From a virus: a DNA stretch of 64,000 bases. A model generated the notes under the pieces. The model saw only the letters and a list, made by a program, of their open reading frames with translations, was not told where the DNA came from and did no database searches. Below are positions 1,816 through 63,671 of the stretch, piece after piece. Made by a program: the position numbers and the translations under genes. Within the stretch, counting starts at the first letter, position 1. Each line of letters opens with the position of its first letter. The stretch is from positions 1-64,000 of IMG/VR virus record IMGVR_UViG_3300028025_004186, one strand, 5' to 3'.

Positions 1816-2595
1816 ATGGACCACTATACAACACTAGGCGTACAACGCACAGCATCACAAGACGAAATCAAACAGGCCTATCGCAGATTGGCCGCAAAGC
1901 ATCACCCTGATCGTGGCGGTGACACAGCTACATTTCAAAAGATACAGCAGGCCTATGATACCCTGGGCAATGATCAACAGCGAGCTGCTTATGATCAACC
2001 ACAGTCACCATTCCAAGGCTTCCAAGGTGGTGGACATTTCAACTTTGATGAAATCTTCAACATGTTTGGTGCACGATTCCATGCGGGTGGACATCAACAG
2101 CAGCATCGGCAAGTGCGCATGAGTCTTTGGATTACCCTGCGTGATGTGGCAGTGGGCGGATCAAGACCTGTGGCAGTGAGCACTCAGCAAGGATCGACTA
2201 CAATTGAAATCCAAATTCCCTCGGGCATTGAAGATGGTGATTCAGTACAGTATCCCAATTTGGCTCCAGGAGGCGGTGATCTTATTGTGACCTTCCGTAT
2301 CCAACCCGACGACCGTTGGCAGCGCAATGGCAACACTGTTCTGCGTGAAGAACCCATATCCATTTGGACATTGATCTCTGGTGGCTCGTTAACCATCACA
2401 ACTCTTGCCGATGAGCGTATCACTGTGGCTATTCCCAGCAATACACAACCCGGAACCATGCTGCGTGTACGCGGCAAAGGTCTGCCAAATCGGCAAGGGC
2501 AGCTGGGAGATCTAATAATAAAAGCACAGGCACAGATTCCTGCAAACATTTCTCCCCAACTGATGTCAGCGATTCGGCAAGAAACGGGCAGCTAA
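1816..2595 (+). CDS. dnaJ: DnaJ/CbpA-type Hsp40 co-chaperone
   Basis: J-domain protein of 259 residues that should stimulate the ATPase of an Hsp70. The J domain spans about residues 3-65 and has the essential HPD at 30-32. A Gly/Phe-rich linker (about 70-95) follows, then a C-terminal substrate-binding domain with the usual IPSGIEDGD and VRGKGLPN signatures. There is no CxxCxGxG zinc-finger region, so it is of the CbpA (class B) type. Its likely partner is the phage DnaK at 60.2 kb. It stands directly upstream of the ClpA-type unfoldase, so a phage chaperone/unfoldase unit is plausible. No GrpE is visible. Confidence 0.93.
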   Translation: MDHYTTLGVQRTASQDEIKQAYRRLAAKHHPDRGGDTATFQKIQQAYDTLGNDQQRAAYDQPQSPFQGFQGGGHFNFDEIFNMFGARFHAGGHQQQHRQVRMSLWITLRDVAVGGSRPVAVSTQQGSTTIEIQIPSGIEDGDSVQYPNLAPGGGDLIVTFRIQPDDRWQRNGNTVLREEPISIWTLISGGSLTITTLADERITVAIPSNTQPGTMLRVRGKGLPNRQGQLGDLIIKAQAQIPANISPQLMSAIRQETGS

Positions 2596-2598
2596 TAG

Positions 2599-2635
2599 TT
2601 GCAGTTAAATGGCAACCATGTTATACTTAAATACC
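2599..2635 (+). promoter_or_regulatory. Sigma70-like promoter plus TAAATA motif before clpA
   Basis: TTGCAG (2599-2604) and TATACT (2622-2627) are separated by 17 bases. The late-type motif CTTAAATACC overlaps at 2626-2635. Together they could give early and late transcription of the ClpA gene, which starts at 2674. Confidence 0.5.
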
Positions 2636-2673
2636 AAAACAAATAGTGGTTCCAATACTCAACGGGATATAAC

Positions 2674-4938
2674 ATGCAAAACAATCCAGAAATCGAACAA
2701 ATAGTTGATGCTGCTGTACGCATCGCACGTGACAAGAAAAACGCTTACATCACAGTAGAGCATGTGCTGTTGGCCATGGTGCGACATGCACCGTTTCGAA
2801 AAACTCTGGAAAAATTTGGCACCAATGTTGCGCTGCTGGAAGGCGATGTTGATGCTTACATTTCTGCACAGAGCAATCATTCAAAAGATCCCACAGATCA
2901 GCCCAAGAAGACCAATGCCTTGGAGCGATTGTTCAATCGTGCGCTGACTCAGGTGATGTTTACCGGCCGCCGACAAGTAGTGACATTGGATCTCTATCTG
3001 TCAATGATGACTGAAACCAACAGTCATGCACAGTATTTTTTACTCAAACACGGCGTTACTAAAATTGAGTTTGCCACGTTCTGGCAGAAACATTATGTTC
3101 AAAGTGATGTCAAAATTACAGACGAACAAGCCGATGAAATACTCAGCGAGTACTGCACCAATCTCACTGCACAGGCACAGAAGTCTCAGTTGGAGCCGTT
3201 GATTGGGCGTGAAACTGAACTGCAGGAAATGATCACTATTCTAGCCAAACGCTTCAAGGCCAATGTGTTGATGGTGGGCGATCCCGGCGTGGGCAAGACT
3301 TGTATTGTAGAAGGTCTGGCACAGGAGATTGCTGCCGGGCGTGTGCCGGAATTCCTCAAAGGACACGAAGTCTGGAGCCTGGAAGTTGGCACACTGTTGG
3401 CAGGATCCAAGTACCGTGGTGAGTTTGAAGAAAAGTTCAAGATGGTGATCACTGCACTAGAAGCCAAGAAGAAATGCGTGTTGTTTATTGACGAAGCACA
3501 CACCATCAAAGGTGCCGGTGCATCAGGATCAAACACCCTGGACATGGCCAATATGATCAAGCCTGCTATCACCAAGGGGCATTTGAAAGTTGTGGCGTCT
3601 ACAACTTGGGAAGAATACTACGAAAGTTTTGAAAAGGATCGTGCGCTGATGCGTAGGTTCTATCGCATTACTATTGACGAGCCCAACACCGAAACCACAG
3701 AAAAGATTCTTATTGGCTTGAGTCCTAGATTAGAAACATTCCACAATGTGGAGATAACCACCGAAGCCATTACATCTGCTGTGGAATTGGCCGAACGTTA
3801 CATACACGACAAAAAGAATCCTGACAAATCAATTGATGTAATTGATGCTGCCTGTGCTAGGGAACGTATCAAAGACATTGGTAATGTTGTACTCACACGC
3901 GATCTCATACAAGCACAGGTGGCCAAGATGACTGGTGTGCCCGTGGATCGTCTGCGCAACGAACAGAGCCTGAATGTAGTGAATCTTGAACCCAACATCA
4001 AATCTGCGCTGTACGGTCAGGATGAGGTGGTTGATCAGGTCTTGGAGCGAGTGTACATCAACTTTGCTGGCATTGCCAAAGCAGGTCGCCCCATGGCATC
4101 GTTTTTGTTTGTTGGCCCCACTGGCACAGGCAAAACTGAAATGGCCAAACTGTTGAGCAGTAACTTAGACATGAAACTGCTGCGCTATGACATGAGTGAA
4201 TATCAAGAAAAGCACACAGTATCCAGTTTGATTGGTGCTCCTCCGGGTTACGTGGGCTTTGAAGATGGCAACGTGGGCGGCGGTAAGTTGATCTCGGATC
4301 TCACCAAGAATCCTTTTGCTGTGATCTTGTTTGATGAAATTGAAAAAGCACACCCTGATGTCACCAACATTTTGTTGCAGTTGTTGGACGAAGGACGCAT
4401 CACCAGTTCCAATGGCAAGACTGTGGACTGTAAAAATACCATTGTGATTATGACATCTAACCTGGGATCACGCGACAACGAAAACAACAACATTGGCTTT
4501 GGCAACATGGAAAAAACCGGCGAAGAAGATCGTGCCATGCGTGAGTTCTTCAAACCTGAACTACGCAATCGTATTGATCAAATCTGCAAATTCAATCGTT
4601 TGGACCAATTGGCCATCAAGAAGATTGTTGTGAAGTTTATTGATGAACTGCGTGGCACATTGACAGAAAAGAATATTCGTATCAATCTCACAGAAGCTGC
4701 TGTGGAATATTTGGCTGACAAGGGCTATGACTCCAAGATGGGTGCAAGACCCCTGGGACGTAAGATTGATGAACTGATTCGTGTGCCGTTGTCCAAGCGT
4801 ATGTTGTTTGATCGACTCACTGATTGCACAGTAAATGTAGACGTCGTTGATGATGCCGTAGATTTTAATATTGTGCCTACAGTAACCCCCACAGTCAACA
4901 GTGAAGGATATATAGTTGTCGACAATATTACAATTTAA
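2674..4938 (+). CDS. clpA: ClpA-type AAA+ unfoldase
   Basis: Double-ring Hsp100 ATPase of 754 residues, almost the length of E. coli ClpA. An N-domain occupies about residues 1-145. The first AAA+ module has Walker A GDPGVGKT near 202-209 and Walker B LFIDEAH; the second has GPTGTGKT near 481-488 and LFDEIEKAHP. The long coiled-coil M-domain of ClpB is missing, so it is an unfoldase and not a disaggregase. An IGF tripeptide near 607-609 lies where ClpA carries its IGL loop for docking on ClpP, so the protein may plug into the host ClpP protease. No clpP or clpS is in the window. It follows dnaJ on the same strand. Confidence 0.93.
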   Translation: MQNNPEIEQIVDAAVRIARDKKNAYITVEHVLLAMVRHAPFRKTLEKFGTNVALLEGDVDAYISAQSNHSKDPTDQPKKTNALERLFNRALTQVMFTGRRQVVTLDLYLSMMTETNSHAQYFLLKHGVTKIEFATFWQKHYVQSDVKITDEQADEILSEYCTNLTAQAQKSQLEPLIGRETELQEMITILAKRFKANVLMVGDPGVGKTCIVEGLAQEIAAGRVPEFLKGHEVWSLEVGTLLAGSKYRGEFEEKFKMVITALEAKKKCVLFIDEAHTIKGAGASGSNTLDMANMIKPAITKGHLKVVASTTWEEYYESFEKDRALMRRFYRITIDEPNTETTEKILIGLSPRLETFHNVEITTEAITSAVELAERYIHDKKNPDKSIDVIDAACARERIKDIGNVVLTRDLIQAQVAKMTGVPVDRLRNEQSLNVVNLEPNIKSALYGQDEVVDQVLERVYINFAGIAKAGRPMASFLFVGPTGTGKTEMAKLLSSNLDMKLLRYDMSEYQEKHTVSSLIGAPPGYVGFEDGNVGGGKLISDLTKNPFAVILFDEIEKAHPDVTNILLQLLDEGRITSSNGKTVDCKNTIVIMTSNLGSRDNENNNIGFGNMEKTGEEDRAMREFFKPELRNRIDQICKFNRLDQLAIKKIVVKFIDELRGTLTEKNIRINLTEAAVEYLADKGYDSKMGARPLGRKIDELIRVPLSKRMLFDRLTDCTVNVDVVDDAVDFNIVPTVTPTVNSEGYIVVDNITI

Positions 4939-9074: not shown

Positions 9075-12000
9075 ATGAACATTGATGAACTTGACAACTT
9101 TAACCTTGATGATGCAATAAGATTCCACAACCAGCTAAACCCTGGTTTGTGGGACCAAAAAGAGCATTTACGACCCGAAGTGCGCGAAGCATTGTTGCGT
9201 ATTGCTGATGACTTTCGCGAGTTCCTGGGCGTACAAGATCTTCAAGTCAAAGACATTACTATAAGTGGCAGCAACGCCGCTTACACCTATACCCCCCACA
9301 GCGACATTGATCTACATCTGGTAGTTGACATACCCGAGTTGTATGATCCGGTGTATCGTGAACTGTTCAATGCCAAGAAGTATGAATACAATGACCGTCA
9401 CAACATACGTGTTCGTGATGCTGATGTAGAGTTGTATGTGCAGCCCAGTGATGACACACATCACAGTCAGGGCATTTATTCAATCAAAGACAATAAATGG
9501 ATTCAGGTACCACGACGTCGTAAAGCCACAGTGGATGACCTTGCAGTGCGCCACAAGTACGAAGACCTAGTGGCACGTATTGATCAAGCCATCAAAGACA
9601 GCAACAATGAATCTGCTGCTGCGTTGATGAAAAAAATACGCAACATGCGTCAGACTGGACTAGATCAACACGGCGAGTTTGGTGCAGAAAATCTTGCGTT
9701 CAAGATGTTGCGCTCACAAGGGTATATTAAAAAGTTATCTGATGCAGTGGCAGCAGCCAAGGATCGTGAGCTAAGTCTTAAAGAACGTAAGAAACCCAAA
9801 AAGAAAAAACGCTATGGATATGGTGGCTATTGGTATCCTGGCTTCAGTTGGGGCGACAGCAGCGGATCGTCTGAAGGCGGTGACGGTGGTGGCGGCGGCG
9901 AGTCTGTGCGTGAAGATGCCGGCAGTACCTGGGATGGAGTAAGTCCCACCACTTGCATGTTTACCAACGAAGCTGACAGTGAAGACAGTCGTCGTGACAT
10001 CATAAAGAAGTTTGCCGGACTGTGCGCACAACATTTAAAACTTAAAAAAATTCCTCGTATCATATTGAAAAAGACTCCGCAGTGGAGTGAGGAAACTGGA
10101 AGCTTTGGCCAATACCAGCCAGATGAACATACACTGATCTTGAGTTTGCCAGGACGTCACATACTTGACGTGCTGCGCACCATGGCACATGAACTAACTC
10201 ATGCACAACAAGAAGAACGTGTGGGACTGCCAGTGGGTGCAGGCGACACTGGATCACCCTGGGAAAACGAAGCCAATGCTCGTGCTGGTATTCTCATGCG
10301 TCACTTTGCTGAACGTCATCCCGAATACTTCAGCAATGTCAGCATAGCCGAAGCCAGTGGTTATATTCCTACTCGAGCACAAGCCCGAGATCCTAGATTC
10401 AGCATGGCTCTGACTGCGGACATCCAACCTGGTGAACTGGGTCGTCAGGCCAACAAGCTGGGATTACAAACAGACTCACAAGGGCGTCCAGCACTCCTAA
10501 TGAAGAGTCTGGCTCGTCAGTTGCGTGAATACAAAGAAACACCGCGTAAAAAGAGCCTGGTGATATTTGACATTGATGATACCTTGTTACATACCACTGC
10601 CAAAATCAGAGTTGTGAGTCGTGGACGTGTGGTGCGTGAACTCACCAATCAACAGTTCAATCATTATAAACTGCAGCCCGATGAAGAGTTTGACTTTGGC
10701 GAATTTAGAAATGCTGAGAAGTTCAATCGCGAAAGCGAGCCCATCAAGCCCATGGTTCGCAAACTAAAAACTATATTGATCAACTCGCCTGACAGCGATG
10801 TGATCATGCTCACAGCACGAGCAGATTTTGATGACAAAGAATTATTTTTAAAAACATTCCGTGATCTTGGCATAGACATGAGTCGTGTGCATGTACATCG
10901 TGCTGGTAACTTGCCTGGTGATGCCATCCCTGCAGAAAAGAAAGCAGTATGGGTTCGCAAATATCTCAACACTGATCGTTATGACCATGTGAGACTGTAT
11001 GATGACTCTGTGACCAACCTCACTGTGTTCAAAGATCTACGTCAGGAATATCCTGGCGTGGACTTCCGTGCAATCTATGTTGGCCCTGAAGGCACAACCA
11101 AGCCCATAGAAGAAGATGAAGAATCTTATGAAATTGACGATGGCAATGATCCACCAGGACCAGAGTCACCGCCCCAGTTCCCCTCGGGTACTGTCAAGGT
11201 AGATGTGTCAGATGTGTATGATTGGTACAAACTAGGCCAAGGCATATCTGACATTGATGACATGAACAAGAAAGATTTTGGCCAAGGACCACCCAGCACT
11301 GTGTTGGCGTTTGGTTCTGAAGATCTGGAACATCAATACATCAAAGCCTTGAAATCTCTGGGATTGCCTGTGCATGATCTTGATGAACCCGGCGAAGAAG
11401 ACCTTGATGAATCTGCTGGCGTTGACTTGTTTGAAATCAACATGAGCCCCAGCAATCTTCGGAAGATGGCTGCCAAGACTGGCGCCATAGCCGGCATGGA
11501 ATTTGAAATGTATGTGCCCGGTGCTGCCGAAGCCGACGAAGATGAATATGGATCTGAGCCAGACTATGAAATGGACGAAAGTTTTCCAACTGGTCGTGGA
11601 TATCAAAGCGAGGTCATAGATTTCTTTAGAGGTGGCGATAATGGCAGTCCTAGAAGCACAATTCAACGTGCGCTTGATGTCTTAAGTGAAGATTACTGGT
11701 CATGGAAAGACGAAAACTTTGAGGAATGGTTAAATGACAATGATACATTGCTAGACTACTATCTCAGAGAAGAACTTCCTCAGGAAGATGATGAAAGCGA
11801 CGACCAATACACAGAACGATTGGGCAGCGACGATGAAGAAGTTCGGCAGGCACAAGATCGGGCCATGGATCGGGTGCGTGAAGAACACCAAAACGAAGAT
11901 CAATTTGAAGAATTTTTACAAGACGCCGACATCAGATCCATGGCCGACTTTGGTAGCAATTACGACGTAGAATGGCCTTATTATAACTACCCTGAAAGCA

Positions 12001-14033
12001 GAGGTGGTAGTATAGACATCGACGATGTCGCCAGCGACTTTCAATCAGCTATTGGTCGCAGAGTGACCACAGGCGGATATCACAGTGGTGCCAGCTCACA
12101 AACCAACAACTATCGTGTAGAAACAGACAGCAGTCTTAGCGATCCTGCCAATCCCGAAGACGGTGGCTTGGAGTTTATCAGTCCTCCACTGCCCTTGGAT
12201 GAAATGTTGTCAGATCTAGACAAGGTAGTTAAATGGGCGCAGCGCAACGACTGTTACACCAACGATACCACCGGCTTGCACATGAATGTCAGTGTTCCTG
12301 GCTTTGAACTCAGCAAACTTGACTATGTTAAGTTGGCTATATTCCTGGGCGATGAATATGTGTTGGATCAGTTTGGTCGTGCTGGTAATACCTACTGCGC
12401 CAGTGCCATGGAAAACATTAGAAAGATTGCTCGAACCAATCCTGACAAAGTCAAAACTATGTTGCAACAGATGCAGGGTAATCTCAGTGCCATGGCATCA
12501 AAGATTGTACACACCGGCACCACAAACAAATATACCAGTATCAACACCAAAGATGGTTACATTGAGTTTCGCAGTCCCGGCGGTGATTGGCTAGACGAAT
12601 ATGCCAACAACGAAGATAAAATCAACAATACCTTGCTGCGTTTTACAGTGGCATTGGACATTGCCATGAAGCCTGAGTTGTACAGACAAGAGTACATGAA
12701 GAAGTTGTACAAGACTCTGTCCCAGGGCGAGAGCGATGACACTATTCAATTCTTTGCACGTTATGCTGCTGGTGACTTGCCACAGTCAGCCCTGAAGAGT
12801 TTTGTCAAGCAAGCGCAAATACAGCGTAAAGCTAAAAAACTACTTCCTGGCGCAATCAAAGGGCAACAATTAATTAGATGGCAGGCCACTTCAGGAGCAG
12901 CTACCGGTACTGTTGTGGCACGTACCGAAGAGGAAGCTAGAAAGAAAGCTGCTGTCAATATTGGTATTCCTTTCACTGATCGTGCCATAGACACCATGAA
13001 CATACAGCCCTTGGATCTTTATACCGGACCTGTTAATCAATACAATATCATCAGAGACGATAGTGGGTTTGACCTTGGCGCTTTTGAAGGTATTGATGAA
13101 CGCGATGCTATCACAAACTTCCGAGTGCAAAAACCACAGTGGAGCAACACTGATGTAACTGCTCGATTAGTAACATCAACTCCAACTCCTCCAGATTATC
13201 CAGCAGCGACGAGCAATACCCCAGGTTCGTGGACCATTATGAATCAATCAACTCGTAATATGTTACAAGGTGTTGGTGGCACATTCATTTATGCCTCTCG
13301 TGCTGCACGGGAGATAGCCCAAGATAACAATATTCGTCATGCAGAGATCCGTATCATAAACACCGACAATGGTCAGGTCTTTGACATTGACGGAAATCCT
13401 GCTAGATACGGCACAGAATCAAATACTCGCGGTGGTGGATTTGCCCGAGCACCACACACCAGCATATATCAAGTGGTTGATAATAGAGACGGGCAAATAA
13501 TATTACGCGGCGCAACACGAACTTTTGCATACACGGTTGAAATGACCAACATATACATTGGTACTCCTAGATATAACCTTACCCCTGAAGATATTAGAAT
13601 TGTTGATCTTAATACCAACACTGCCTATAAAATAGATGGTTCACCTGCTAATGCATCTGCACCAGCAGCACAAACAGAACAACTTTATAATGTTAGATGG
13701 ACAGATGAAAATGGCGAGCACGACGTAAATCGTAGAGCCCCAAATGCCAATGCTGCCATGGAAGATGTTCGTAACAGTTTAGAAAGCGGTGGATTTAGAG
13801 TGGCCTCTATAGAAGCCAATCCCATAGGACAGACACAAGGTCAAGCACAAGGATCGGACAGTTTACCATCAGGGCAGGCTCGTTGGTTGATACTGGATCG
13901 CAATGATCGTGAAGTTTATTCGTTTGTAGGTAGTACAGCACAACGTGACGCCAATGATATTGCCAGGAACTGGCTAACTGCCAATGCTCAAGATGGACAA
14001 GGGCCTTTTACTGTGGTGCCGGTGTCAAGATGA
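9075..14033 (+). CDS. Giant multi-enzyme protein: nucleotidyltransferase, metalloprotease, HAD phosphatase, amidoligase-like, repeats
   Basis: A 1652-residue protein. Residues about 1-250 hold a Pol-beta-type nucleotidyltransferase (GS motif then HSDIDLHLV near 64-83). A Gly-rich linker near 255-275 follows. A zinc metalloprotease-like segment has HELTH at about 372-376 with a downstream NEANAR. A HAD-type phosphatase (VIFDIDDTLL near 495-505, later MLTAR and DDS) follows. An amidoligase-like domain spans about 800-1240 (GMEFEMYVPG, GGLEFISPPLP, GLHMNVSVPG, IEFRSPGGDW). The region from about 1270 to the end has about six imperfect beta-beta-alpha repeats. No capsid-targeting start is seen, but the array of such proteins begins directly downstream with a 4-base overlap. 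The combined action is unknown; a virion-associated modifying machine is plausible. Confidence 0.8.
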   Translation: MNIDELDNFNLDDAIRFHNQLNPGLWDQKEHLRPEVREALLRIADDFREFLGVQDLQVKDITISGSNAAYTYTPHSDIDLHLVVDIPELYDPVYRELFNAKKYEYNDRHNIRVRDADVELYVQPSDDTHHSQGIYSIKDNKWIQVPRRRKATVDDLAVRHKYEDLVARIDQAIKDSNNESAAALMKKIRNMRQTGLDQHGEFGAENLAFKMLRSQGYIKKLSDAVAAAKDRELSLKERKKPKKKKRYGYGGYWYPGFSWGDSSGSSEGGDGGGGGESVREDAGSTWDGVSPTTCMFTNEADSEDSRRDIIKKFAGLCAQHLKLKKIPRIILKKTPQWSEETGSFGQYQPDEHTLILSLPGRHILDVLRTMAHELTHAQQEERVGLPVGAGDTGSPWENEANARAGILMRHFAERHPEYFSNVSIAEASGYIPTRAQARDPRFSMALTADIQPGELGRQANKLGLQTDSQGRPALLMKSLARQLREYKETPRKKSLVIFDIDDTLLHTTAKIRVVSRGRVVRELTNQQFNHYKLQPDEEFDFGEFRNAEKFNRESEPIKPMVRKLKTILINSPDSDVIMLTARADFDDKELFLKTFRDLGIDMSRVHVHRAGNLPGDAIPAEKKAVWVRKYLNTDRYDHVRLYDDSVTNLTVFKDLRQEYPGVDFRAIYVGPEGTTKPIEEDEESYEIDDGNDPPGPESPPQFPSGTVKVDVSDVYDWYKLGQGISDIDDMNKKDFGQGPPSTVLAFGSEDLEHQYIKALKSLGLPVHDLDEPGEEDLDESAGVDLFEINMSPSNLRKMAAKTGAIAGMEFEMYVPGAAEADEDEYGSEPDYEMDESFPTGRGYQSEVIDFFRGGDNGSPRSTIQRALDVLSEDYWSWKDENFEEWLNDNDTLLDYYLREELPQEDDESDDQYTERLGSDDEEVRQAQDRAMDRVREEHQNEDQFEEFLQDADIRSMADFGSNYDVEWPYYNYPESRGGSIDIDDVASDFQSAIGRRVTTGGYHSGASSQTNNYRVETDSSLSDPANPEDGGLEFISPPLPLDEMLSDLDKVVKWAQRNDCYTNDTTGLHMNVSVPGFELSKLDYVKLAIFLGDEYVLDQFGRAGNTYCASAMENIRKIARTNPDKVKTMLQQMQGNLSAMASKIVHTGTTNKYTSINTKDGYIEFRSPGGDWLDEYANNEDKINNTLLRFTVALDIAMKPELYRQEYMKKLYKTLSQGESDDTIQFFARYAAGDLPQSALKSFVKQAQIQRKAKKLLPGAIKGQQLIRWQATSGAATGTVVARTEEEARKKAAVNIGIPFTDRAIDTMNIQPLDLYTGPVNQYNIIRDDSGFDLGAFEGIDERDAITNFRVQKPQWSNTDVTARLVTSTPTPPDYPAATSNTPGSWTIMNQSTRNMLQGVGGTFIYASRAAREIAQDNNIRHAEIRIINTDNGQVFDIDGNPARYGTESNTRGGGFARAPHTSIYQVVDNRDGQIILRGATRTFAYTVEMTNIYIGTPRYNLTPEDIRIVDLNTNTAYKIDGSPANASAPAAQTEQLYNVRWTDENGEHDVNRRAPNANAAMEDVRNSLESGGFRVASIEANPIGQTQGQAQGSDSLPSGQARWLILDRNDREVYSFVGSTAQRDANDIARNWLTANAQDGQGPFTVVPVSR

Positions 14034-14611
14034 GAGCTGCAGAATTCATCACCGAAGCCAATAGAAGTGGGCTACCAAGACTGTCAGTGCAGGATCAAAT
14101 TCGTGCTGCTGTGAAAAAAGATGGTGGCCGTGCTGACGAATACTTTGTGAGATTTACCGGTGTTGACCGTGTAGGCTTCAGTGCTCGTCAAGTGTTTGGT
14201 CGTACTCCTGATGCCGACGATCCCAAGTTTGATCCTGATTATATTGGTGCCGGCAAAGGTCGTCCAGCACTGTGGTTCTATCCTTTAAACACTTATCTCA
14301 AATCCCGCGATATTTTTGCCAGCGAACATCCTTACATATGGTTAGTGCGTATTCGTCCTGATGCTTGGTTACAACCTATTCGCAACAATACTCGAGGTAT
14401 ACAAGCAGCACCTCAAGGCAAGCATCGTGTGGGCATGATGCGGTTGACTGGCGGTTTTCCTGCTGCAATTTTCTTTGAACCGGCATTTGATGTTGTGGGA
14501 CGCTTTTACGACTATGCCAAAATGCATCAAAGACACGGTGAAGTGCAAGGCGCTCCCAAAACATCCACCTCTAAAAATCTGTTAAATAAGTTCAAAGGAT
14601 TGTTTAAATGA
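14030..14611 (+). CDS. Capsid-targeted protein of unknown function
   Basis: A 193-residue protein starting MRAAEFITEA, which closely matches the capsid-targeting peptide of T4 internal proteins (MKTYQEFIAEA in IPI/IPIII), with an I-T-E|A site for a prohead protease. The remaining domain, about residues 20-170, is mixed alpha/beta and not recognised. A Lys-rich C-terminus follows. The ATG overlaps the upstream stop (ATGA), and its own stop overlaps the next start in the same way. Packing into the head is inferred from the N-terminus. Confidence 0.75.
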   Translation: MRAAEFITEANRSGLPRLSVQDQIRAAVKKDGGRADEYFVRFTGVDRVGFSARQVFGRTPDADDPKFDPDYIGAGKGRPALWFYPLNTYLKSRDIFASEHPYIWLVRIRPDAWLQPIRNNTRGIQAAPQGKHRVGMMRLTGGFPAAIFFEPAFDVVGRFYDYAKMHQRHGEVQGAPKTSTSKNLLNKFKGLFK

Positions 14612-15228
14612 GAGCCGTTGAATTTATCGCTGAAATAGATCGTCGGGGGTTCCTAGGAGCCTTGGGTGCCGGTGCCATGGCTGCTGCTGGAGTTCCTGCA
14701 CAAGCAAAATCCAAGAAGCCCGAGCCAATGGCCTTCTTGAGTTCAAACATGGATGCCGAAGAAATGCTGCACAAGACTGCGCTTCGTGCTGGCATTCGTG
14801 GCACAGAACTAGCACAGTTTCTAGCACAGTGTTATCATGAATCAGCAGGCTTTGGTCGTATGCATGAATATGCCACGGGAAAAGAATACGAAGGACGTCA
14901 AGACTTAGGTAACATATACAAGGGCGACGGTGTTAGATACAAAGGGCGCGGCTTTATACAGATCACTGGCAGAGACAACTATCGTCGTGCTGGGCAGGCC
15001 TTGGGATTGCCACTAGAAGATAAGCCTGAGTTAGCCAGCAGACCCGACATTGCTGCAAAGATCGCTGTATGGTACTGGGCAAATCGTGTCAGACCCAATG
15101 TTGCTAACTTCAATGACACTCGTGCTGTCACACAACGTATTAATCCCAAGTTACTTGGTTTGGCAGACAGACACGAAAACTTTAAAGATTACAAGAATAT
15201 GTTTATTGCCACAAGGACCGGAACGTGA
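14608..15228 (+). CDS. GH19-like lysozyme/endolysin with capsid-targeting start and Tat-like signal
   Basis: A 206-residue protein. Residues 1-10 are the capsid-targeting peptide MRAVEFIAEI. Residues 11-35 look like a twin-arginine export signal (DRRGFLGALGAGA, ending VPAQA). The rest, from about residue 45, is a chitinase/lysozyme-like domain of glycoside hydrolase family 19 type, with the likely catalytic Glu in CYHESAGF, then YKGRGFIQITGRDNY and WYWANRVRPN. It should cut peptidoglycan. The double address is unusual: the enzyme may be packed in the head and used at entry, or exported by Tat for lysis. Starts and stops overlap with both neighbours (ATGA, GTGA). Confidence 0.85.
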   Translation: MRAVEFIAEIDRRGFLGALGAGAMAAAGVPAQAKSKKPEPMAFLSSNMDAEEMLHKTALRAGIRGTELAQFLAQCYHESAGFGRMHEYATGKEYEGRQDLGNIYKGDGVRYKGRGFIQITGRDNYRRAGQALGLPLEDKPELASRPDIAAKIAVWYWANRVRPNVANFNDTRAVTQRINPKLLGLADRHENFKDYKNMFIATRTGT

Positions 15229-16520
15229 GAGCTCAAGACTTTATCACAGAAGCACCACGTGACGTATTCCACTTTGTGGGACAGAGTCATAACGTCCCAC
15301 GTCCCACAGGTAGTTACTATAAATGGCGTGTGAGTCTCAGCAACGGACAATACTATCATGTCCGAGCTGGTGCCAATACTGACTTAGAAAAATTCAAGAA
15401 ATACTTTCAACGTAAATGGGGCGCAGAAATGCCTGACGTTGAAGTTGTCAAGGCCGAACGTCTGGAAAGACTCAGTGAAGAAGATTCTCAAAAAGAATGT
15501 CCGCCAGCCACGCAAGATATCACCATCAATCTTGAGAATAGACAAAAAGCCATTGATGAGTACGGATACGGTCCACTGAACCCAGACTTGCCCAATCGTA
15601 AGTTCTGGATGGCCAAAGTTGACGAGTGGAACCTGGACTCTGCAGAAGAAGCAAAACAAAGCCTGTGCGGTAACTGTGCAGCATTTGATCAACGTCAAGC
15701 AACCTTGGACTGTATTGCTCAAGGCATAGACAGTGACAATCCCGAAGACGCCGAAGGCGTTATTGACGCCGGCGAGTTAGGATATTGTAAATTTTTAAAA
15801 TTTAAATGTGCCAGTCGTAGAACCTGCGATGCATGGGTAACAGGTGGTCCACTCACAGACCAACAAGATGTAGATGAAATGGCCGGCACAATAAATGCTG
15901 GTATTAGTCAAGCATTGGCCAACAAAGGATACAAATATCTAGGCGGAGGAATTGACAAGCAAGCATACCTAGAGCCAGGTACCGGACAGGTGTTGATCAT
16001 ATTTGGCTATCGCAAAGGCCAAAAAGATTTTAGCCCTGATCAACGTATGTTTATAAACTGGATAAACTATTGCAATAAAAATAAAAATAATCCACACTTG
16101 CCTAGATTTTCAGGATTTGAAAGTTTCAAATTCCAAGGCAAAAACTATATTCAAGCAAGAATGGAACCACTGCAAGAGTTACCTGATGAAATAGGATATC
16201 TAGTTGGACACGCTGATGAAGTTATAAAGAAACGCAAAACAGATTACAAAAAAGAACTTAAAACAATGTCACAGTATGCTATGCATACGTTTAATGACGA
16301 AGGCGGCGGTACATGGTATGAGTTAAAAGACACCGTAAAGCATTTGGGTGGTAAAAAAGCAGCAGTGAATTTACTAAACACAGTGTATGATGTCAAACGT
16401 TTTGGACGTAAGCAAGGATACACAATTGATTTACACAAAGGAAATTACATGCGACGAGCCGACGGTACCATCGTTGTAAATGATCCTTATGTGTTATGGC
16501 TAGGAGGGCTGCTAGATTGA
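15225..16520 (+). CDS. Capsid-targeted protein with Cys-rich domain and kinase-like C-terminus
   Basis: A 431-residue protein beginning at GTG with MRAQDFITEA, a capsid-targeting start. Residues about 80-205 hold a Cys-rich domain (single Cys in KECPPATQD, then CGNC, DCIAQ, YCKFLKFKC and RTCDAW) likely to bind a metal or an iron-sulfur cluster. From about residue 215 the sequence resembles a protein-kinase or aminoglycoside-phosphotransferase fold: a Gly-rich loop (YLGGGIDKQAY) and, near the end, DLHKGN followed by VVNDPY, which match the catalytic loop and metal-binding Asp. An active, injected kinase is possible but unproven. GTGA and TTGA overlaps join it to its neighbours. Confidence 0.72.
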   Translation: MRAQDFITEAPRDVFHFVGQSHNVPRPTGSYYKWRVSLSNGQYYHVRAGANTDLEKFKKYFQRKWGAEMPDVEVVKAERLERLSEEDSQKECPPATQDITINLENRQKAIDEYGYGPLNPDLPNRKFWMAKVDEWNLDSAEEAKQSLCGNCAAFDQRQATLDCIAQGIDSDNPEDAEGVIDAGELGYCKFLKFKCASRRTCDAWVTGGPLTDQQDVDEMAGTINAGISQALANKGYKYLGGGIDKQAYLEPGTGQVLIIFGYRKGQKDFSPDQRMFINWINYCNKNKNNPHLPRFSGFESFKFQGKNYIQARMEPLQELPDEIGYLVGHADEVIKKRKTDYKKELKTMSQYAMHTFNDEGGGTWYELKDTVKHLGGKKAAVNLLNTVYDVKRFGRKQGYTIDLHKGNYMRRADGTIVVNDPYVLWLGGLLD

Positions 16521-17410
16521 GAGCCACTGAATTCATAGCAGAAGGTGCCACTGATATATTGTATCATTATACTGGCATCAATTCGGCTCTTAAAATACTC
16601 ACCAATGGCGAATTTGAGTTGAGCAGTGTCACAGGCAATCCGTCTGAAGAACAATATGCTCCCCCAGGTTATCCTTACTTTTTATCTACCACTCGCAGTC
16701 GTGTGGGCGATTATCATAGATGGGTTGGCAGCAGTGCTGTGATGTTTGTGTTGGATGGACAATGGCTGCAGCAGCGTTATCCAGTCAAGCCGGTTGATTA
16801 TTGGAATCGTTCTTGGTTACACAGTGGTGGCAGCAGAAGCAGAGAAAGCGAAGACCGAGTGTTCAGTCGTGATCCCACTATTGCCACTGGCGGTGTCAAG
16901 ATGATTCATGTTCTACTGAAAGAACAGCACGAAAATAGATCTCCAGAAGTTAGAAAATTATTGATACTGGCCAAACGATTGGACATACCTGCTTATTTGT
17001 ACGACGACGAGCAGGCCTGGAGATTACAAGACACACGCAAAGCCATCACTGTGGGGCAAGCTGCCTCACTGTTAAAAGGACAGGATCCTTCACCAAGAAG
17101 TTATGGAAGAAAATATCTATCAAAATGGCTGGAGTTGATACACAAGAAAGCCAGTGATGAGTTAAGCAAAGAAGCCAATCGCATGGCGTATAATATGAAA
17201 TACTATTCGCTTGATGGATTGTACAATCTGGACATTGATATGAGCAACGCCAGAAAACCCGGCTCCAGTGATCATGACCAAGCTGTTAAGATTATCAGTT
17301 ATATGCGAGCCAACAGAATCACAACATTGCAGCAACTACTGAATCATCTCCGAGACAAGTGGACAGCAATTGGCGAAAAAGAGCAAGCAGCGAAAAAGGC
17401 ACAGCAATGA
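16517..17410 (+). CDS. Capsid-targeted ADP-ribosyltransferase-like protein
   Basis: A 297-residue protein. The TTG at 16517, preceded by AGGAGG (16502-16507) and overlapping the upstream stop (TTGA), gives MRATEFIAEG, the capsid-targeting start; a longer in-frame start at 16496 would bury it. The next segment, ILYHYTGINSALKILTNGEF, then YPYFLSTTRS and, further on, SESEDRVFS, follow the H/Y, S-T and E order of ADP-ribosyltransferase folds. T4 Alt is a packaged, injected ADP-ribosyltransferase with the same kind of targeting start, so a functional parallel is attractive. The C-terminal half is helical and basic. Catalysis is inferred from motif order only. Confidence 0.7.
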   Translation: MRATEFIAEGATDILYHYTGINSALKILTNGEFELSSVTGNPSEEQYAPPGYPYFLSTTRSRVGDYHRWVGSSAVMFVLDGQWLQQRYPVKPVDYWNRSWLHSGGSRSRESEDRVFSRDPTIATGGVKMIHVLLKEQHENRSPEVRKLLILAKRLDIPAYLYDDEQAWRLQDTRKAITVGQAASLLKGQDPSPRSYGRKYLSKWLELIHKKASDELSKEANRMAYNMKYYSLDGLYNLDIDMSNARKPGSSDHDQAVKIISYMRANRITTLQQLLNHLRDKWTAIGEKEQAAKKAQQ

Positions 17411-18714
17411 GAGCCCAAGAATTTATTGTAGAAGCGTTTGATCAACCTTACGCGACAGATTTAGAAAAATCCGAACATGATGATTATGACTCATTGGTGC
17501 AATTGCCAGATGGTTCCCACTTGAGCATTATGTTTAATCACCAAGGCGATGACGAATATCAAGTTGAATTTTGGCGAGGGCCTAGTCAGGAAGTAACCGG
17601 CGAAGGTGATGCACAAAGAATATTTGCTACAGTTCTGAGTACTATACAAAAGTTTATTAAAGAACATAACCCGTGGCGGTTGACATTCTCAGCAACCAAA
17701 GACGTTGAGCCCGGGCAGAACAGTGAAAGCAGAGCCAAATTATATAATAGATTAGTTGATCGCTATGCTGCTGCTTGGGGGTATGATGCCCTTATTAATG
17801 ATCTTGGTGACCAAGTTGAATACGAGTTGACTAGATTAAAGCCGGGTGTGACGGAAGACGCAATGCGAGGTGTGATCTATATTAAACCCAATTTAGAAAA
17901 TGAATGGCCTGAAGCAAATCGTTATCCAGAATTTCATAAGTTAGGCAAGGATCAGTGGATTAAAATTGCTCGGCAAGGTAGTATGGCCAAGTGGTCAAGT
18001 TTAAAAGATGTTGGCAATTTTGATAGTGATTTATCTAATTTAGAACCAGGAAAAAGAAAAAGAGCGGCGGTACAGGTAAATCGTGGCAAAGTTGAACTAC
18101 CTATCGTGGGTCGTTGGCCTAACGGTGAGTTGGATCTAATTGCTGGCAACACTCGTACTGCTACACTATTAGATCAAGGACATGATCCTAAAGTTTGGGT
18201 TGTAGATGTTCCTGATGTTGATATCAAAGAAAACTTTGCTGATGGCAAGACGCCAGTCCAACCAGTGATTGCTGCCATACAAAAAGTCATGCCCATAGCA
18301 CAAGAAATATGGTTCCATGGCAGTCGTGCTACAGGTCGGCATCGTAGAAATAGCGACACTGACATCTTGGTGGTTGTGCCTGATGACCTCGTGGGAGATC
18401 AGTATCTTGGTGTGGTAAGAATATTACAAAACCTTTCTGCACATTTTGACAATTATGACATACAACCAACTAAGGCAGGAACCAATATACATCAAATTGC
18501 ACAAGAAGAAGGTAAATTACTGTGGTCAACAACAAATGAAAACTTTGCCGATGGCAAGGTCAAGGGCAAAAGTCGTCCGGGTCGTGTAAAACGTTCAGGT
18601 GCAAGTTGTGCAGGATCGGTAAGTAGTTTAAGAGCCAAGGCCAAACGCAGTGGAGGCGAACGTGGCAAGATGTATCACTGGTGTGCTAACATGAAGTCAG
18701 GAAAGAAAAAATGA
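17407..18714 (+). CDS. Capsid-targeted protein with ParB-like and nucleotidyltransferase domains and Cys/basic tail
   Basis: A 435-residue protein starting MRAQEFIVEA at the ATG overlapping the upstream stop. Residues 20-150 are unrecognised. Around residues 180-280 a ParB/sulfiredoxin-like segment ends in LDLIAGNTRTATLL. Residues about 300-380 hold a Pol-beta-type nucleotidyltransferase (WFHGSRATGRHRRNSDTDIL). The last 50 residues are a basic module with two Cys (SGASCAGS and YHWCANMK). The phrase ENFADGK occurs twice, at about 278 and 380, flanking the nucleotidyltransferase, as though domains were inserted at a repeated linker. Packing into the head is inferred from the N-terminus. Confidence 0.72.
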   Translation: MRAQEFIVEAFDQPYATDLEKSEHDDYDSLVQLPDGSHLSIMFNHQGDDEYQVEFWRGPSQEVTGEGDAQRIFATVLSTIQKFIKEHNPWRLTFSATKDVEPGQNSESRAKLYNRLVDRYAAAWGYDALINDLGDQVEYELTRLKPGVTEDAMRGVIYIKPNLENEWPEANRYPEFHKLGKDQWIKIARQGSMAKWSSLKDVGNFDSDLSNLEPGKRKRAAVQVNRGKVELPIVGRWPNGELDLIAGNTRTATLLDQGHDPKVWVVDVPDVDIKENFADGKTPVQPVIAAIQKVMPIAQEIWFHGSRATGRHRRNSDTDILVVVPDDLVGDQYLGVVRILQNLSAHFDNYDIQPTKAGTNIHQIAQEEGKLLWSTTNENFADGKVKGKSRPGRVKRSGASCAGSVSSLRAKAKRSGGERGKMYHWCANMKSGKKK

Positions 18715-19136
18715 GAATACGCGATATAGTTGAAGCAGCTGACTTGGATCTTGATGCCATGAAAACCAACATAGCTGCTGGCACCGATGCAGTTGATACC
18801 ACTAACCCAGTCAAGTCCCTTCCTGGGTCGTCTAAGTCCACAGCAAGTCTTGGCATGACCCCGGCACAGTCAGCAGTTATTTCTGCCAGCGATGTAGACA
18901 AGGCCATAAATCTTGGTAAATCAGTGCAGTCTAATTTAGAGAAACAAATTGCCGACACCACAACACAATTAAAAGTTGCGCAAACAATGCCAGCAGGTGC
19001 CACAGTCAAAGGCATGTCTGGGCCAGTGGGAGGTCCTGCTACCAATTGGGTTGGCAAGACTGCGCAAGGTGCCCCCGCAGGTGGAGGCATAGTAAAGAAA
19101 CCACCAACAACCAGTCAGAAATTTCCTTTAAAATGA
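18711..19136 (+). CDS. Small low-complexity protein with targeting-like start
   Basis: A 141-residue protein starting MRIRDIVEAA, a looser version of the capsid-targeting start with a V-E|A site. The remainder is rich in Ala, Thr, Gly, Ser and Pro with one helical segment (about 60-90), and looks largely disordered. Start and stop both overlap neighbours by 4 bases (ATGA). An internal scaffold-like or packed protein is possible; no domain is recognised. Confidence 0.65.
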   Translation: MRIRDIVEAADLDLDAMKTNIAAGTDAVDTTNPVKSLPGSSKSTASLGMTPAQSAVISASDVDKAINLGKSVQSNLEKQIADTTTQLKVAQTMPAGATVKGMSGPVGGPATNWVGKTAQGAPAGGGIVKKPPTTSQKFPLK

Positions 19137-19522
19137 GAGCCACTGAATTCATCGTTGAAACCCCGGTACGTGACTTGACTAGAGCACTGCGAGCCAACTC
19201 AAATCACGACTACAATACCATTGACGGTGAAATGACTGCCATCTCTCTACACTACGACATCACTCCCAAGCAGTTACATGATCGCTTTGTCAAACGCTAT
19301 GGCAAGACTCCCGACGAATGGATCAAATCACAAAGTGTTGATGAAGCCGGCACAGGATTGTTCTGGAGAACCTATCCCTGTACCAAAGATTGTTCAGGTC
19401 ATCAAGCCGGTGATCAATGGGCACAGATTCGCGGAATAAAAAATCCTGCACAATGCCCCTTGGGCAAGTCCAACAGTTGGTGGGAAGGCTGCAAAAGCGA
19501 AGCCGAAGGTCGCCCTTATTAA
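19133..19522 (+). CDS. Small capsid-targeted protein with Cys module
   Basis: A 129-residue protein starting MRATEFIVET at 19133, overlapping the upstream stop; a longer frame to 19046 has no support. Residues 10-65 are helical and basic. A V-D-E-A linker follows (in KSQSVDEAGTG), then a compact Cys module (YPCTKDCSGHQAGDQW, AQCPLG, EGCK) with four cysteines that could bind zinc. The linker resembles those that join modules in the 938-residue protein at 22.9 kb. Function unknown. Confidence 0.7.
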   Translation: MRATEFIVETPVRDLTRALRANSNHDYNTIDGEMTAISLHYDITPKQLHDRFVKRYGKTPDEWIKSQSVDEAGTGLFWRTYPCTKDCSGHQAGDQWAQIRGIKNPAQCPLGKSNSWWEGCKSEAEGRPY

Positions 19523-21407: not shown

Positions 21408-21713
21408 ATGCGCTGCGAATTTGTTCAAGTTGTGTGTGATGTGGACTGTAAATGGGAAGGGTTATCCCCAGCCTACAGGGCCTATATCAACGATGAATTA
21501 TTTGCCGAGCGTACTTGGATATGGACAGAACATTACCTAGAAGAAATGTTTCAAATTTCAGCACTGCCGGGCAAGTATCATATCAGATTTGAACTAGTAC
21601 AGCCTTGTTTGGCTGAATTAACAGTGACAAATATGCGTGTGGTACAAGGGCCAGGGCGCATGAAAAGCGGTGGATTATTGAAGATTGGAAGCACAGAACA
21701 TGAGAGCCAGTGA
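21408..21713 (+). CDS. Small hypothetical beta protein
   Basis: A 101-residue protein with alternating beta-like strands, a central ERTWIWTEHYLEE segment and two Cys near the N-terminus. No family with a known role is recognised. It begins right after a GCTAAATA motif and its 3' end overlaps the next gene, which starts at 21700. Confidence 0.6.
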   Translation: MRCEFVQVVCDVDCKWEGLSPAYRAYINDELFAERTWIWTEHYLEEMFQISALPGKYHIRFELVQPCLAELTVTNMRVVQGPGRMKSGGLLKIGSTEHESQ

Positions 21714-21891
21714 ATTTATCAATGAAAATGTCAGCGTAGGGGCAACAGGCGCAGGATCAATTGCCTCAACCATGGGCGGACTTAGTCACATGCCTGCTGT
21801 GAGCCGCTTAGGTGGAAACTTACTAACTGGTAAATATACAAACGTGGCTACGCCAAATACACCAAAGAAGAGGAAAAATCGTGCTAAGTGA
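21700..21891 (+). CDS. Small capsid-targeted protein (63 aa)
   Basis: Starts MRASEFINEN at 21700 inside the upstream gene. After the targeting peptide come a Gly/Ser/Ala-rich stretch and a basic end (TPKKRKNRAK). It has the character of the small T4 internal proteins: a targeting start plus a short basic body. The stop overlaps the GTG of the Dps-like gene. Confidence 0.7.
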   Translation: MRASEFINENVSVGATGAGSIASTMGGLSHMPAVSRLGGNLLTGKYTNVATPNTPKKRKNRAK

Positions 21892-22911: not shown

Positions 22912-25728
22912 ATGAATTTCCGACAACTGTTTGAAAATAAAACACCAGTCACAGACTATGGCACCTGGCGTGACGAGATTAATGCTCAGGGCGGTGAGAT
23001 ACATCCTCAGCAGGATAGAAATCGTTTGGTGGCACAACGCTGGGACGGTGACGTCATTGGTGAATTTAATCTTAGAACCAATCAAGGTTATATTAACAGA
23101 CAGCAAGGTGTGGCAGAAGGCAAAGGTGATTTTGCACAAGCCATTGAAAATCTACACGGTTGGCATGAAGTAGAATCAAACAATCCTGACATAAGAATTT
23201 GGGAGTTTGATGATCGTGAAGGCGGTCACTACGCTCAAGGAACAGTGTATTACATTGAGAAAACTGGTCGCATACAAATAGAGTTTGAAGACCGAGATGG
23301 TTATCACGGCGGTGATGTAACTGATGCTTTCAATTCCATTGGTGGTGCCATGAATGTGTTGAAGAATATCACAGTACAGGTTAGACCAAACACCGGCAAA
23401 GCACGAGATTTTGATAAACTTGGTGGAAGAACTGTTGCAGGTCCAGATGATCTATATAAAACTGATCGTGCAGGCCGGAAAGGTACCTTGAATAAGAGTC
23501 GCATGGATACTATGAAAGCATCTAGTCCATATCGTAAGACAGGCCCCGAAGGCCAATTACCCGAGTCTGGCGTAGAAGAAGCCACAGGTGATCCAAAGTT
23601 TGACAAGATGCTTAAAGGTATTACAGGTAAAAGACAAGTAGCCAAACAACAAAAAACAGATACTAAGCAACAGGCACGTGATGCTTTTGGTGGTATGTTT
23701 GGTGGTGGCAATCCTGCTGATAAACTCAGCATCAGAAACAAAGGTGTGGCGGAAGGCTCAGATGATGGCTACGGTTATAAGTCATTGTCAACCGAACAAA
23801 TCATGAAGTTGATCAAATCAGGCAACTGGGAGGCCGTGCAAGACGTTGTACCGGGCAAGCACATTCAATTACGAAACAACAGAAATGGAAAGAGCACCAC
23901 CATCCATGTCAAGCAAGATGTAGATGAAGGCCTAAAAAGTAAAATAGCAGGTGCAGCTCTTGCTGCTGCCAATCTCTTAGGAAGTCCTGCTCAGGCAGCG
24001 GAAGAACCAGTTAAGCCTATAACAATTGCCTATGTACAAATTGACGGTGAAGTCAGGAAATACAATCTAGGAGATAAATTTTCTAGTGCCAAAGAAGCCG
24101 AACAATTTATTTCTGGTGTCTTAGACAAGCAAGGTATATCAGGATATACCTTAGATATTAAACACGGATATCCCAAACAGAAGCAAAGTGTAGATGAAAA
24201 TCTACGTGATTGGTTCAAAGAAAAGTGGGTGAGATTTGGCCCTGATGGCAAGATTCGCGGCGACTGTGCCAGAGGCAGTGAATCCGAAGGCAAGCCTAAA
24301 TGCTTACCACAGGCCAAAGCACATGCACTGGGCAAAAAAGGTCGTGCATCAGCTGCAGCCCGCAAGCGCAAAGAAGATCCCAACGCCAATCGCACAGGTG
24401 CTGCAATAAATGTTGCAACCAAAAAGAAAACCAACGAAGTGCAACTTGACGAAAAATGCTGGGATACACACAAACAAGTAGGGATGAAGAAAAAAAGCGG
24501 TCGCATGGTCCCCAACTGTGTGCCAAGAGAAAGTGTAGAACAATCAGAAATGTGCCCTGAGTGCGGCGGCGCAATGTATTCTGAAGCTATGATCAATGAA
24601 AAGAAAGATGCCTGTTATTACAAAGTCAAAGCATCAGCCAAGGTATGGCCCAGTGCTTATGCATCAGGCCGCTTGGTACAGTGTCGCAAACGCGGTTCCG
24701 CCAACTATGGCAAAAAATCAGAAAGTAAAATACCCGAAGATGCCAATATGTCACAGGCCGCTGTGAGAAAATTACAGAACATGCTCAACACTAAAGGTGC
24801 AAATTTAGATGTTGACGGCGTAATGGGACCGTTGACTACAAAGTCGGTAGAAAAATATCTGCCAGCAGTGGCCAAACGGTTGGCGCCAGATCCAAGTCGT
24901 ACCACCGGAGTACAAGGACAAAAGCCCAAGCACAAAGACATGGCCGAAGGCTTGCCACCAATGGGTTTTGTTAGGTCTGAGATAAAACGCGATCCTTTGA
25001 AAAATCCAACAAGAACTTATATAGAAATATCAAAAATGTTAGGTATTACACCTAGACAATTGCAAGGTTTTACTTTACGCAATGCAGGGTTTCCGTCTCC
25101 TATTAAAGGGATAGGAAGACAAGCAGGGCGTGGCACTAATAATTATTATGAATTAAACCAAGTAAAGCAATGGATTAAAGATAATAATATTAAAGATCAA
25201 ATTGCAGCACTGGTTAGTAAAAATGTTGCAAAAGATCAAGGCGTAGACGAAGGCGAATACAAAGACACAGTTGACAAGAGCAAGATTCCGGCAGTGCAAC
25301 GCAAAGCCCAAGGTGGTGATTGGAAAGTGTCCACCCGAGATCTTGAGCACGAACGCAGCAAGAGCCCCACTGGCGCAGCTGGGCTGGCCAAAGCCAAAGA
25401 ACGTTTAGGCATGAATGAAAATCAACAGTTGCCACCCGAAGTCATTGAACTGCTTAAAAAGGTAGCGCAGAGCGATGCTGCTCCTGAACATAAAAAGGCC
25501 ATCATCAACTCTATCATGGCCAAGTACCAGCCCGTCAAGGATATTGCTGAAACACCAACACGAACCGCACGTGAAAAGTTCAACCAGGGCCTGAAACGTG
25601 CAGGCTTTGATCCTGATGCAGCAGCCAAAAGACTTACTGATTTGATTGCCAAGCAAAAAGCCGAGCGTGAACAATTTGAAAAAGAGAATCCCGCAGTGTA
25701 TGGTGATACTTCCAAGGCACCCAAATGA
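22912..25728 (+). CDS. 938-residue modular protein joined by V-x-E-G linkers
   Basis: Starts MNFRQLFENK, a targeting-like peptide. The body is a string of unrelated modules, each introduced by a G/S-V-A/D-E-G/N linker: GVAEG at about 66 and 278, DVDEG at 336, SVDEN at 427, DMAEG near 677 and GVDEG at 777. SGVEEA near 220 and VQLDE near 510 look like variants. Modules seen include a Cys/Lys-rich one (KWVRFGPDGKIRGDC, then PKCLPQAKAHALGKKG), one with CWDTHKQVGMKKK, one with CPECGG plus CYYKVKASAKVWPSAYA, a peptidoglycan-binding-like helical one (near 610-665) and a helix-turn-helix-like one (near 680-760). The linkers fit the h-x-E|G rule of T4-type prohead proteases. Processing into separate packed peptides is inference. 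Confidence 0.75.
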   Translation: MNFRQLFENKTPVTDYGTWRDEINAQGGEIHPQQDRNRLVAQRWDGDVIGEFNLRTNQGYINRQQGVAEGKGDFAQAIENLHGWHEVESNNPDIRIWEFDDREGGHYAQGTVYYIEKTGRIQIEFEDRDGYHGGDVTDAFNSIGGAMNVLKNITVQVRPNTGKARDFDKLGGRTVAGPDDLYKTDRAGRKGTLNKSRMDTMKASSPYRKTGPEGQLPESGVEEATGDPKFDKMLKGITGKRQVAKQQKTDTKQQARDAFGGMFGGGNPADKLSIRNKGVAEGSDDGYGYKSLSTEQIMKLIKSGNWEAVQDVVPGKHIQLRNNRNGKSTTIHVKQDVDEGLKSKIAGAALAAANLLGSPAQAAEEPVKPITIAYVQIDGEVRKYNLGDKFSSAKEAEQFISGVLDKQGISGYTLDIKHGYPKQKQSVDENLRDWFKEKWVRFGPDGKIRGDCARGSESEGKPKCLPQAKAHALGKKGRASAAARKRKEDPNANRTGAAINVATKKKTNEVQLDEKCWDTHKQVGMKKKSGRMVPNCVPRESVEQSEMCPECGGAMYSEAMINEKKDACYYKVKASAKVWPSAYASGRLVQCRKRGSANYGKKSESKIPEDANMSQAAVRKLQNMLNTKGANLDVDGVMGPLTTKSVEKYLPAVAKRLAPDPSRTTGVQGQKPKHKDMAEGLPPMGFVRSEIKRDPLKNPTRTYIEISKMLGITPRQLQGFTLRNAGFPSPIKGIGRQAGRGTNNYYELNQVKQWIKDNNIKDQIAALVSKNVAKDQGVDEGEYKDTVDKSKIPAVQRKAQGGDWKVSTRDLEHERSKSPTGAAGLAKAKERLGMNENQQLPPEVIELLKKVAQSDAAPEHKKAIINSIMAKYQPVKDIAETPTRTAREKFNQGLKRAGFDPDAAAKRLTDLIAKQKAEREQFEKENPAVYGDTSKAPK
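23107..25254 (+). repeat. Dispersed GVAEG/VDEG linker repeats inside the modular protein
   Basis: The linkers are alike in DNA as well as protein. GGTGTGGCAGAAGGC at 23107-23121 and GGTGTGGCGGAAGGC at 23743-23757 differ by one base. Related copies are near 23917 (GATGTAGATGAAGGC), 24187 (AGTGTAGATGAAAAT), 24940 (ATGGCCGAAGGC) and 25240 (GGCGTAGACGAAGGC). Low divergence of the first pair points to duplication or module insertion at a shared site. Confidence 0.6.
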
Positions 25729-60137: not shown

Positions 60138-60198
60138 TTACTTGTAAATGTGCCGACAGGGCATTTACAAAATCTTGCTTAATTCAAAGGAGAAAACA

Positions 60199-63195: not shown

Positions 63196-63327
63196 ATGGG
63201 CACTGAACAGTTATACTTCGTTATTGGGTTCTTACTTGGCACAATGTTAACGGGCTGCTTGGTGGTATTTGCCTATGCACTCTGGCATGAATACTTGTTT
63301 AAACCCACCCCAGAGAAAGAAGAATAA
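63196..63327 (+). CDS. Small single-pass membrane protein (43 aa)
   Basis: A 43-residue frame starting MGTEQLYFVIG, with one membrane segment (about residues 5-28) and a charged end (KPTPEKEE). It lies between tRNA-Gly and the tmRNA. No ribosome site is clear. Unrecognised. Confidence 0.5.
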   Translation: MGTEQLYFVIGFLLGTMLTGCLVVFAYALWHEYLFKPTPEKEE

Positions 63328-63353
63328 AAGAATTGTTGTAATTCCTTTGGAGT

Positions 63354-63626: not shown

Positions 63627-63629
63627 GTA

Positions 63630-63651
63630 AGCCCGCTTCGGCGGGCTTTTT
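63630..63651 (+). terminator. Rho-independent terminator after the tmRNA
   Basis: GCCCGC (63631-63636) and GCGGGC (63641-63646) pair around a TTCG loop, followed by five T. It ends the tmRNA precursor. Confidence 0.9.
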
Positions 63652-63671
63652 CACATCTGCAGATTTGCATT

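Follow-up and report, generated by a model that had tools for sequence, protein, structure and literature searches.

How can one phage lysozyme carry a capsid-targeting peptide and an export signal in tandem, and in what order would they act? The question is raised by a gene at positions 14608–15228 (+) of the window, a stretch of 64,000 nucleotides that is part of a 65,168-base IMG/VR virus record. A preliminary description of this DNA had noted here an open reading frame with a capsid peptide, a Tat-like signal and a GH19 domain, and analysis of the reading frame, of the repeated capsid-targeting peptides (CTS), of Pfam matches and of the predicted fold confirmed all of these at this position and strand. 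We lean towards the reading that the protein is a head-packed cargo lysozyme with an export signal that the prohead protease would expose, for use in the next host. At the level of sequence, the evidence comprises the CTS, the protease site, the signal and the domain with their conserved order, together with a prohead protease and a second, plain endolysin encoded by relatives.

The lysozyme gene and its protein

The gene consists of 206 codons for a 206-aa protein; its ATG overlaps the stop of the preceding gene (ATGA), and a Shine-Dalgarno-like AAAGGA (14594–14599, +) can be read 8 nt upstream. From the N-terminus, the protein is composed of the capsid-targeting-like peptide MRAVEFIAE (residues 1–9; 14608–14634, +), the Tat-type signal IDRRGFLGALGAGAMAAAGVPAQA (14635–14706, +), a short linker and the GH19 lysozyme domain (residues 47–197; 14746–15198, +). 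The preliminary description had proposed that a cut at I-A-E leaves the Tat signal as the new N-terminus; this held, with the exact boundary corrected, as the predicted prohead-protease cut falls after E9 (I-A-E/I, the slash marking the cut) and the N-terminus would be IDRRGFLG. The twin arginines are residues 12–13 (14641–14646), within DRRGFLG, and are followed by an Ala/Gly-rich h-region and an AxA site, VPAQA/K (residues 29–33), that ends at residue 33. The protein thus has the (S/T)RRxFLK-like motif, weak h-region and AxA site expected of a Tat substrate, while the Pfam TAT_signal model matches residues 9–27 with an E of 0.0096 and 16.3 bits, under its cutoff of 22.7.

The GH19 domain matched PF00182 well over the cutoff (E 1.7e-11), and AlphaFold2 gave a pLDDT >90 across most of it, with low values over about residues 1–40. 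Phage GH19 endolysins were the top matches in both Foldseek and phmmer searches, and those of SPN1S (4OK7) and PWe2 (9MS7), as well as 7R6S, share the catalytic fold and sequence of the window lysozyme; to our knowledge, none of these three has a CTS or a Tat signal. H77, E78 (within HES) and E87 are invariant among 24 aligned relatives, by which the active site is judged intact, and the spacing of E78 and E87 is presumably that of E49 and E58 in SPN1S. The mature lysozyme is basic, with a computed pI of 9.6.

Taken by itself, the window protein could be a plain Tat protein that is never cleaved by a prohead protease, since residue 12 is a normal position for RR in Tat signals. The whole 33-residue N-terminus would then be an ordinary Tat signal, with an accidental resemblance to a CTS, and the enzyme an unusual endolysin exported folded in the infected cell. 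A leader of 33 residues is normal for Tat signals, which average 37 (PMC1182353), Tat exports the host amidases AmiA and AmiC (PMC7317946), and fusion to a Tat signal can lead to export of an endolysin (PMC9527704). We nevertheless regard this explanation as rather unlikely: the n-region is identical in kind to the peptide of six neighbouring genes, a sister protein has the same Tat signal deep within its chain, and relatives encode a second endolysin without any such leader.

Capsid-targeting peptides and the gene cluster

A loose CTS pattern was matched by nine ORF starts in the window, compared with 1.0 in shuffled sequences (maximum 4 in 300 shuffles). Seven of the nine are MRAx[ED]FIxE genes that lie together at 14.0–21.9 kb, so that the lysozyme shares its CTS-like peptide with six neighbours, all on the + strand. 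These encode proteins of 193 aa (14030–14611; MRAAEFITEA..., without Pfam match), 431 aa (15225–16520; MRAQDFITEA..., GTG start, without Pfam match), 297 aa (16517–17410; MRATEFIAEG..., with a TTG start overlapping the preceding stop), 435 aa (17407–18714; MRAQEFIVEA..., with a Pol-beta-type nucleotidyltransferase domain), 129 aa (19133–19522; MRATEFIVET...) and 63 aa (21700–21891; MRASEFINEN...). Genes of the cluster recur near the lysozymes of relatives in shuffled order.

We take the window peptide to be close to that of T4 IPIII, and MRAVEFIAE/I has the short N-terminal CTS and L/I-x-E site of a T4-type internal protein. The T4 protease gp21 cuts on the C-terminal side of L/I-x-E; ten IPIII residues are enough for packaging, residues 8 and 10 control cutting, and D at P1 inhibited processing (PMC9026906).

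Two long proteins flank this region. Directly upstream of the cluster, at 9075–14033 (+), is a 1652-aa multidomain protein with nucleotidyltransferase-like and amidoligase-like stretches; in three relatives (L030, L035 and L038), the lysozyme forms the end of a long protein that starts similarly. Downstream, a 938-aa protein (22912–25728, +) has a V-D-E/G site, with the cut at 23929, followed by the signal-like GLKSKIAGAALAAANLLGSPAQA (23929–23997); with about eight [ILV]xE-[GANSD] sites, it resembles a polyprotein that comprises small cargo units.

A predicted protease site before the signal in relatives

A scan of viral contigs yielded 80 lysozyme loci, from which 52 distinct proteins with a recognisable segment were analysed; in all 52, a weakly hydrophobic, Ala/Gly-rich, signal-like stretch lies upstream of the lysozyme. 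The motif [ILV]xE, which we take to be that of the gp21 prohead protease, ends 1–7 residues before this segment in 43 of the 52, compared with an expectation of 2.9 calculated from the remaining positions of these proteins (never more than 12 in 200,000 simulations); the 52 lysozymes are related by descent, hence the 43 are not independent events. Near-variants occur among the nine misses, namely VTE eight residues off (L009), TDE (L033), and I-A-D (L021, with an internal signal) and L-N-D (L055); the last two carry D where the predicted cut calls for E, which counts against our reading. Chance matching of the motifs was rejected on the basis of these placement simulations and the CTS shuffles.

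The preliminary description had named a lack of RR conservation among relatives as refuting its proposal, and this applies in part. Tat-type segments with RR are present in 15 of the 52 (e.g., VLE/DISRRGFLGG, LEE/MNRRGFLG and VDE/DMSRRGFLG), while 32 carry a GW[KR][DE]-type segment (e.g., LEE/GWKDWVAGAALGAAAL) and RR is absent in 37; because of this division, Tat would, as far as these sequences tell, share the task with at least one other route. The two types are alike in mean hydropathy and in A+G content, and the mean h-region hydropathy of the RR type is 1.3. Within the RR lineages the RRxFL motif is kept, and AxA-like sites are found in 13/15. On the lysozyme tree, at least seven changes between RR and GW are needed, five of them forced by well-supported branches. 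The closest relative reads MRSYEFISE/IDRRGFLG, and the window protein groups with L002, in which the CTS also stands directly before the Tat signal, and with L004. The latter, the sister mentioned above, is a 525-aa protein that starts with MRASEFIVE and has the same Tat signal as the window protein at residue 324, behind an LEE site.

Alternatively, the lysozyme could be packed and cut, with its hydrophobic N-terminus inserting in the inner membrane during DNA ejection, which would make it an ejection protein with an incidental RR. Murein hydrolases ejected from the head exist, e.g., T7 gp16, and GW-type segments without RR are the majority. These also resemble the weakly hydrophobic Ala/Gly segments of SAR type (PMC9239132). 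Retention of RRxFL in the RR lineages and the AxA-like sites in most of them argue against this explanation, as does the entry of T4 internal proteins into the cytoplasm (PMC9026906), and we find it decidedly unlikely. A further alternative, that the protein is packed and injected with no export and that the hydrophobic segment has its role in assembling the head or associating with membranes, is very improbable. CTS packaging needs no export and the export role of the segment is putative; however, the cut site is kept while one export-like kind of segment takes the place of the other, and we know of no cytoplasmic substrate for a lysozyme.

Internal signals

Tat signals work at the N-terminus of a protein. 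In 10 of the 15 RR-type lysozymes, the RR is internal, at about residue 86–395; L013, counted as N-terminal by the chosen start, is probably an eleventh case. The combination of site and Tat signal was also found on three other cargo proteins and, as an additional module, in the polyprotein of L035; across these cases it lies at residues 203–625. Judged from their position, internal Tat signals could work only after cleavage of the chain.

Internal translation starts just before RR might instead produce a separate Tat lysozyme, with no need for a protease. In L004, L028, L046 and L081, an ATG does lie immediately upstream of the residue that precedes RR, although no clear Shine-Dalgarno sequence precedes these ATGs, except perhaps in L046. 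No start codon is present there in L008, L010, L013, L015, L019, L021, L038, L039 and L040, nor in the two genes of L035, so that most internal-RR proteins lack ATG, GTG or TTG just upstream of RR. Separate translation therefore does not explain most of the internal signals; internal start codons were rejected for this majority, and we give this alternative hardly any credence. A cut at the predicted PhixE site does explain the internal Tat signals. The earlier proposal that the export signal becomes N-terminal once the capsid peptide is removed is likewise supported, as [ILV]xE stands directly before the signal wherever the signal is located, internal positions included.

The L035 polyprotein (L035:2959-6510; 1183 aa) carries two export-like modules separated by a deaminase domain, namely a Tat signal within the chain (residue 625) and, ahead of the lysozyme, a segment of GW type. 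Three cargo proteins without a lysozyme domain have PhixE followed by a Tat signal (L035:992-1957, L038:1434-2936 and L040:2537-4540), and those of L035 and L038 show a weak cytidylyltransferase-like match upstream of the signal. A genome-wide scan for PhixE combined with a hydrophobic segment of any kind returned largely noise, the lysozyme protein excepted. When mechanical gene sets of the relatives G004 (374 kb, ~534 ORFs) and G008 (352 kb, ~445 ORFs) were scanned for Tat signals, the only convincing one was that of the CTS lysozyme protein.

Prohead protease and capsid genes

A gp21-family prohead protease (Peptidase_S77) scored above the cutoff in 8 of the 15 longer relative records, where it sits with portal, core-protein, scaffold and MCP genes. 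All eight relative MCPs that were read have a conserved L-x-E-[NS] near residue 40–45, which would be a fitting cut site. Neither the protease nor the capsid cassette was found in the window's own 65-kb record, and because this fragment is without the cassette, we infer a protease in the window phage from its kin.

A second endolysin in relatives

More than one GH19 match was obtained in 10 of the 15 relative records, one being the form with CTS and signal and the other a plain GH19 protein of about 204–219 aa that starts without either. In seven of these ten (G001–G006 and G012), the plain gene adjoins spanin-like or holin-like membrane genes; the remaining five records, which may be fragments, have one GH19 match each. 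Because relatives encode this second, plain endolysin, the window lysozyme is probably not the ordinary endolysin, and that function was rejected as its main role, although a second GH19 gene was not found in the window's 65-kb record. Canonical holin-dependent endolysins have no export signal and belong to a lysis cassette, while the window protein has a signal and lies within the CTS cluster. Its RR and AxA site also set it apart from SAR endolysins, which are exported by Sec and keep an uncleaved, weakly hydrophobic TM segment at the N-terminus; SAR-type export is possible for the GW-type relatives.

Several candidate examples among isolates were discarded, and no cultured example came out of the comparison. 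The endolysin of PA5oct detected in virions (gp311) has a SAR-like N-terminus without CTS, and the GH19 lysozymes of the isolates Motura and MaMV have no CTS-signal leader upstream of the domain. The GH19 lysozymes of cyanophage isolates lie among baseplate genes and were judged by this location. GH19 was not matched in the six isolates with the nearest MCP, PA5oct with its virion mass-spectrometry notes included, in a search that ran without a positive control.

A proposed route from head to periplasm

The arrangement of peptide, site and signal leads us to infer packaging, cleavage, injection, export and a role early in infection. The phage would be a large T4-related myovirus with the lysozyme as virion cargo, drawn into the prohead core by residues 1–9 acting as CTS, and a gp21-family protease would cut after E9, placing the twin-arginine signal at the new N-terminus. 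Injected with the DNA, the mature lysozyme would refold in the cytoplasm of the new host, be exported by the host Tat machinery and be cut by signal peptidase at VPAQA/K, and the GH19 domain would attack peptidoglycan from within the periplasm at an early stage of infection. In relatives, a GW[KR][DE]-Ala/Gly segment, perhaps Sec- or SAR-like, replaces the Tat signal behind the same predicted protease site. With the signal buried in longer cargo of many relatives, head cleavage may be an export switch that takes effect only in the next cell. Early periplasmic lysozyme might remodel the wall after entry, exclude later phages or prime lysis. We see a nearly even chance for a broader proposition, in which a viral maturation protease is the switch for secretion in the next host. 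Large phages would embed latent Tat- and Sec/SAR-type signals in polyproteins packed into the head and unmask them by prohead cleavage; the enzymes would be injected into the cytoplasm and then exported to the periplasm by the host, reaching the envelope from inside in two steps. CTS-driven packaging has precedents in T4 (PMC9026906) and P1 (PMC9024508). No earlier report of Tat signals on injected phage proteins was found among the open-access papers searched.

If the proposed route is true, proteins injected by a phage can reach beyond the cytoplasm, and host export machinery could bring enzymes to the periplasm ahead of all phage gene expression. Masking of the export signal until cleavage in the head would account for bulk production of a secretable lysozyme without lysis of the factory cell. 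Capsid assembly would acquire a testable link with protein targeting, and an export signal immediately after [ILV]xE would be a sequence rule for finding such cargo in other large phages.

Comparison with known systems

We know of no T4 internal protein described with an export signal exposed by a cut. IPI, IPII, IPIII and Alt of T4 resemble the window system in their short N-terminal L/I-x-E peptide and several cargo genes (PMC9026906); the internal proteins are cleaved by gp21 and injected, and a T4-like protease is present in relatives of the window phage. The window cargo differs in being a lysozyme, with a substrate outside the cytoplasm. Polyvalent phage proteins are large, injected and multidomain, and like the cargo of the relatives they combine several domains per predicted virion protein (PMC9503650, PMC7824862), but in the relatives the domains are separated by prohead-protease-like sites, which export signals follow. 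The SAR endolysins P1 Lyz and Mu gp22 have a weakly hydrophobic Ala/Gly N-terminal segment like that of the GW-type relatives (PMC9239132), although at the true N-terminus, with no capsid peptide or protease site, and they are not head cargo. Among host cell-wall hydrolases, export routes vary within one family, with AmiA and AmiC exported by Tat and AmiB by Sec (PMC7317946), as they may among relatives of the window lysozyme; in contrast to the latter, AmiA and AmiC are encoded on the host chromosome and are not virion cargo.

Other genes in the window

A D-alanyl-D-alanine carboxypeptidase-like protein, recognised by eye at 62251–63093 (+), combines a His-rich stretch with a conventional signal peptide at the N-terminus, and may be a further cell-wall enzyme destined for the periplasm. 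Genes recognised by eye also include DnaJ-like, Clp ATPase-like and DnaK-like ones (1816–4938 and 60148–62076, +) and those of a queuosine-type pathway (at 42406, 46111 and 49299). A predicted tmRNA gene at 63304–63683 (+), with the tag peptide ANAANDEVFALAA, is preceded by six tRNA genes from 57.7 kb on.
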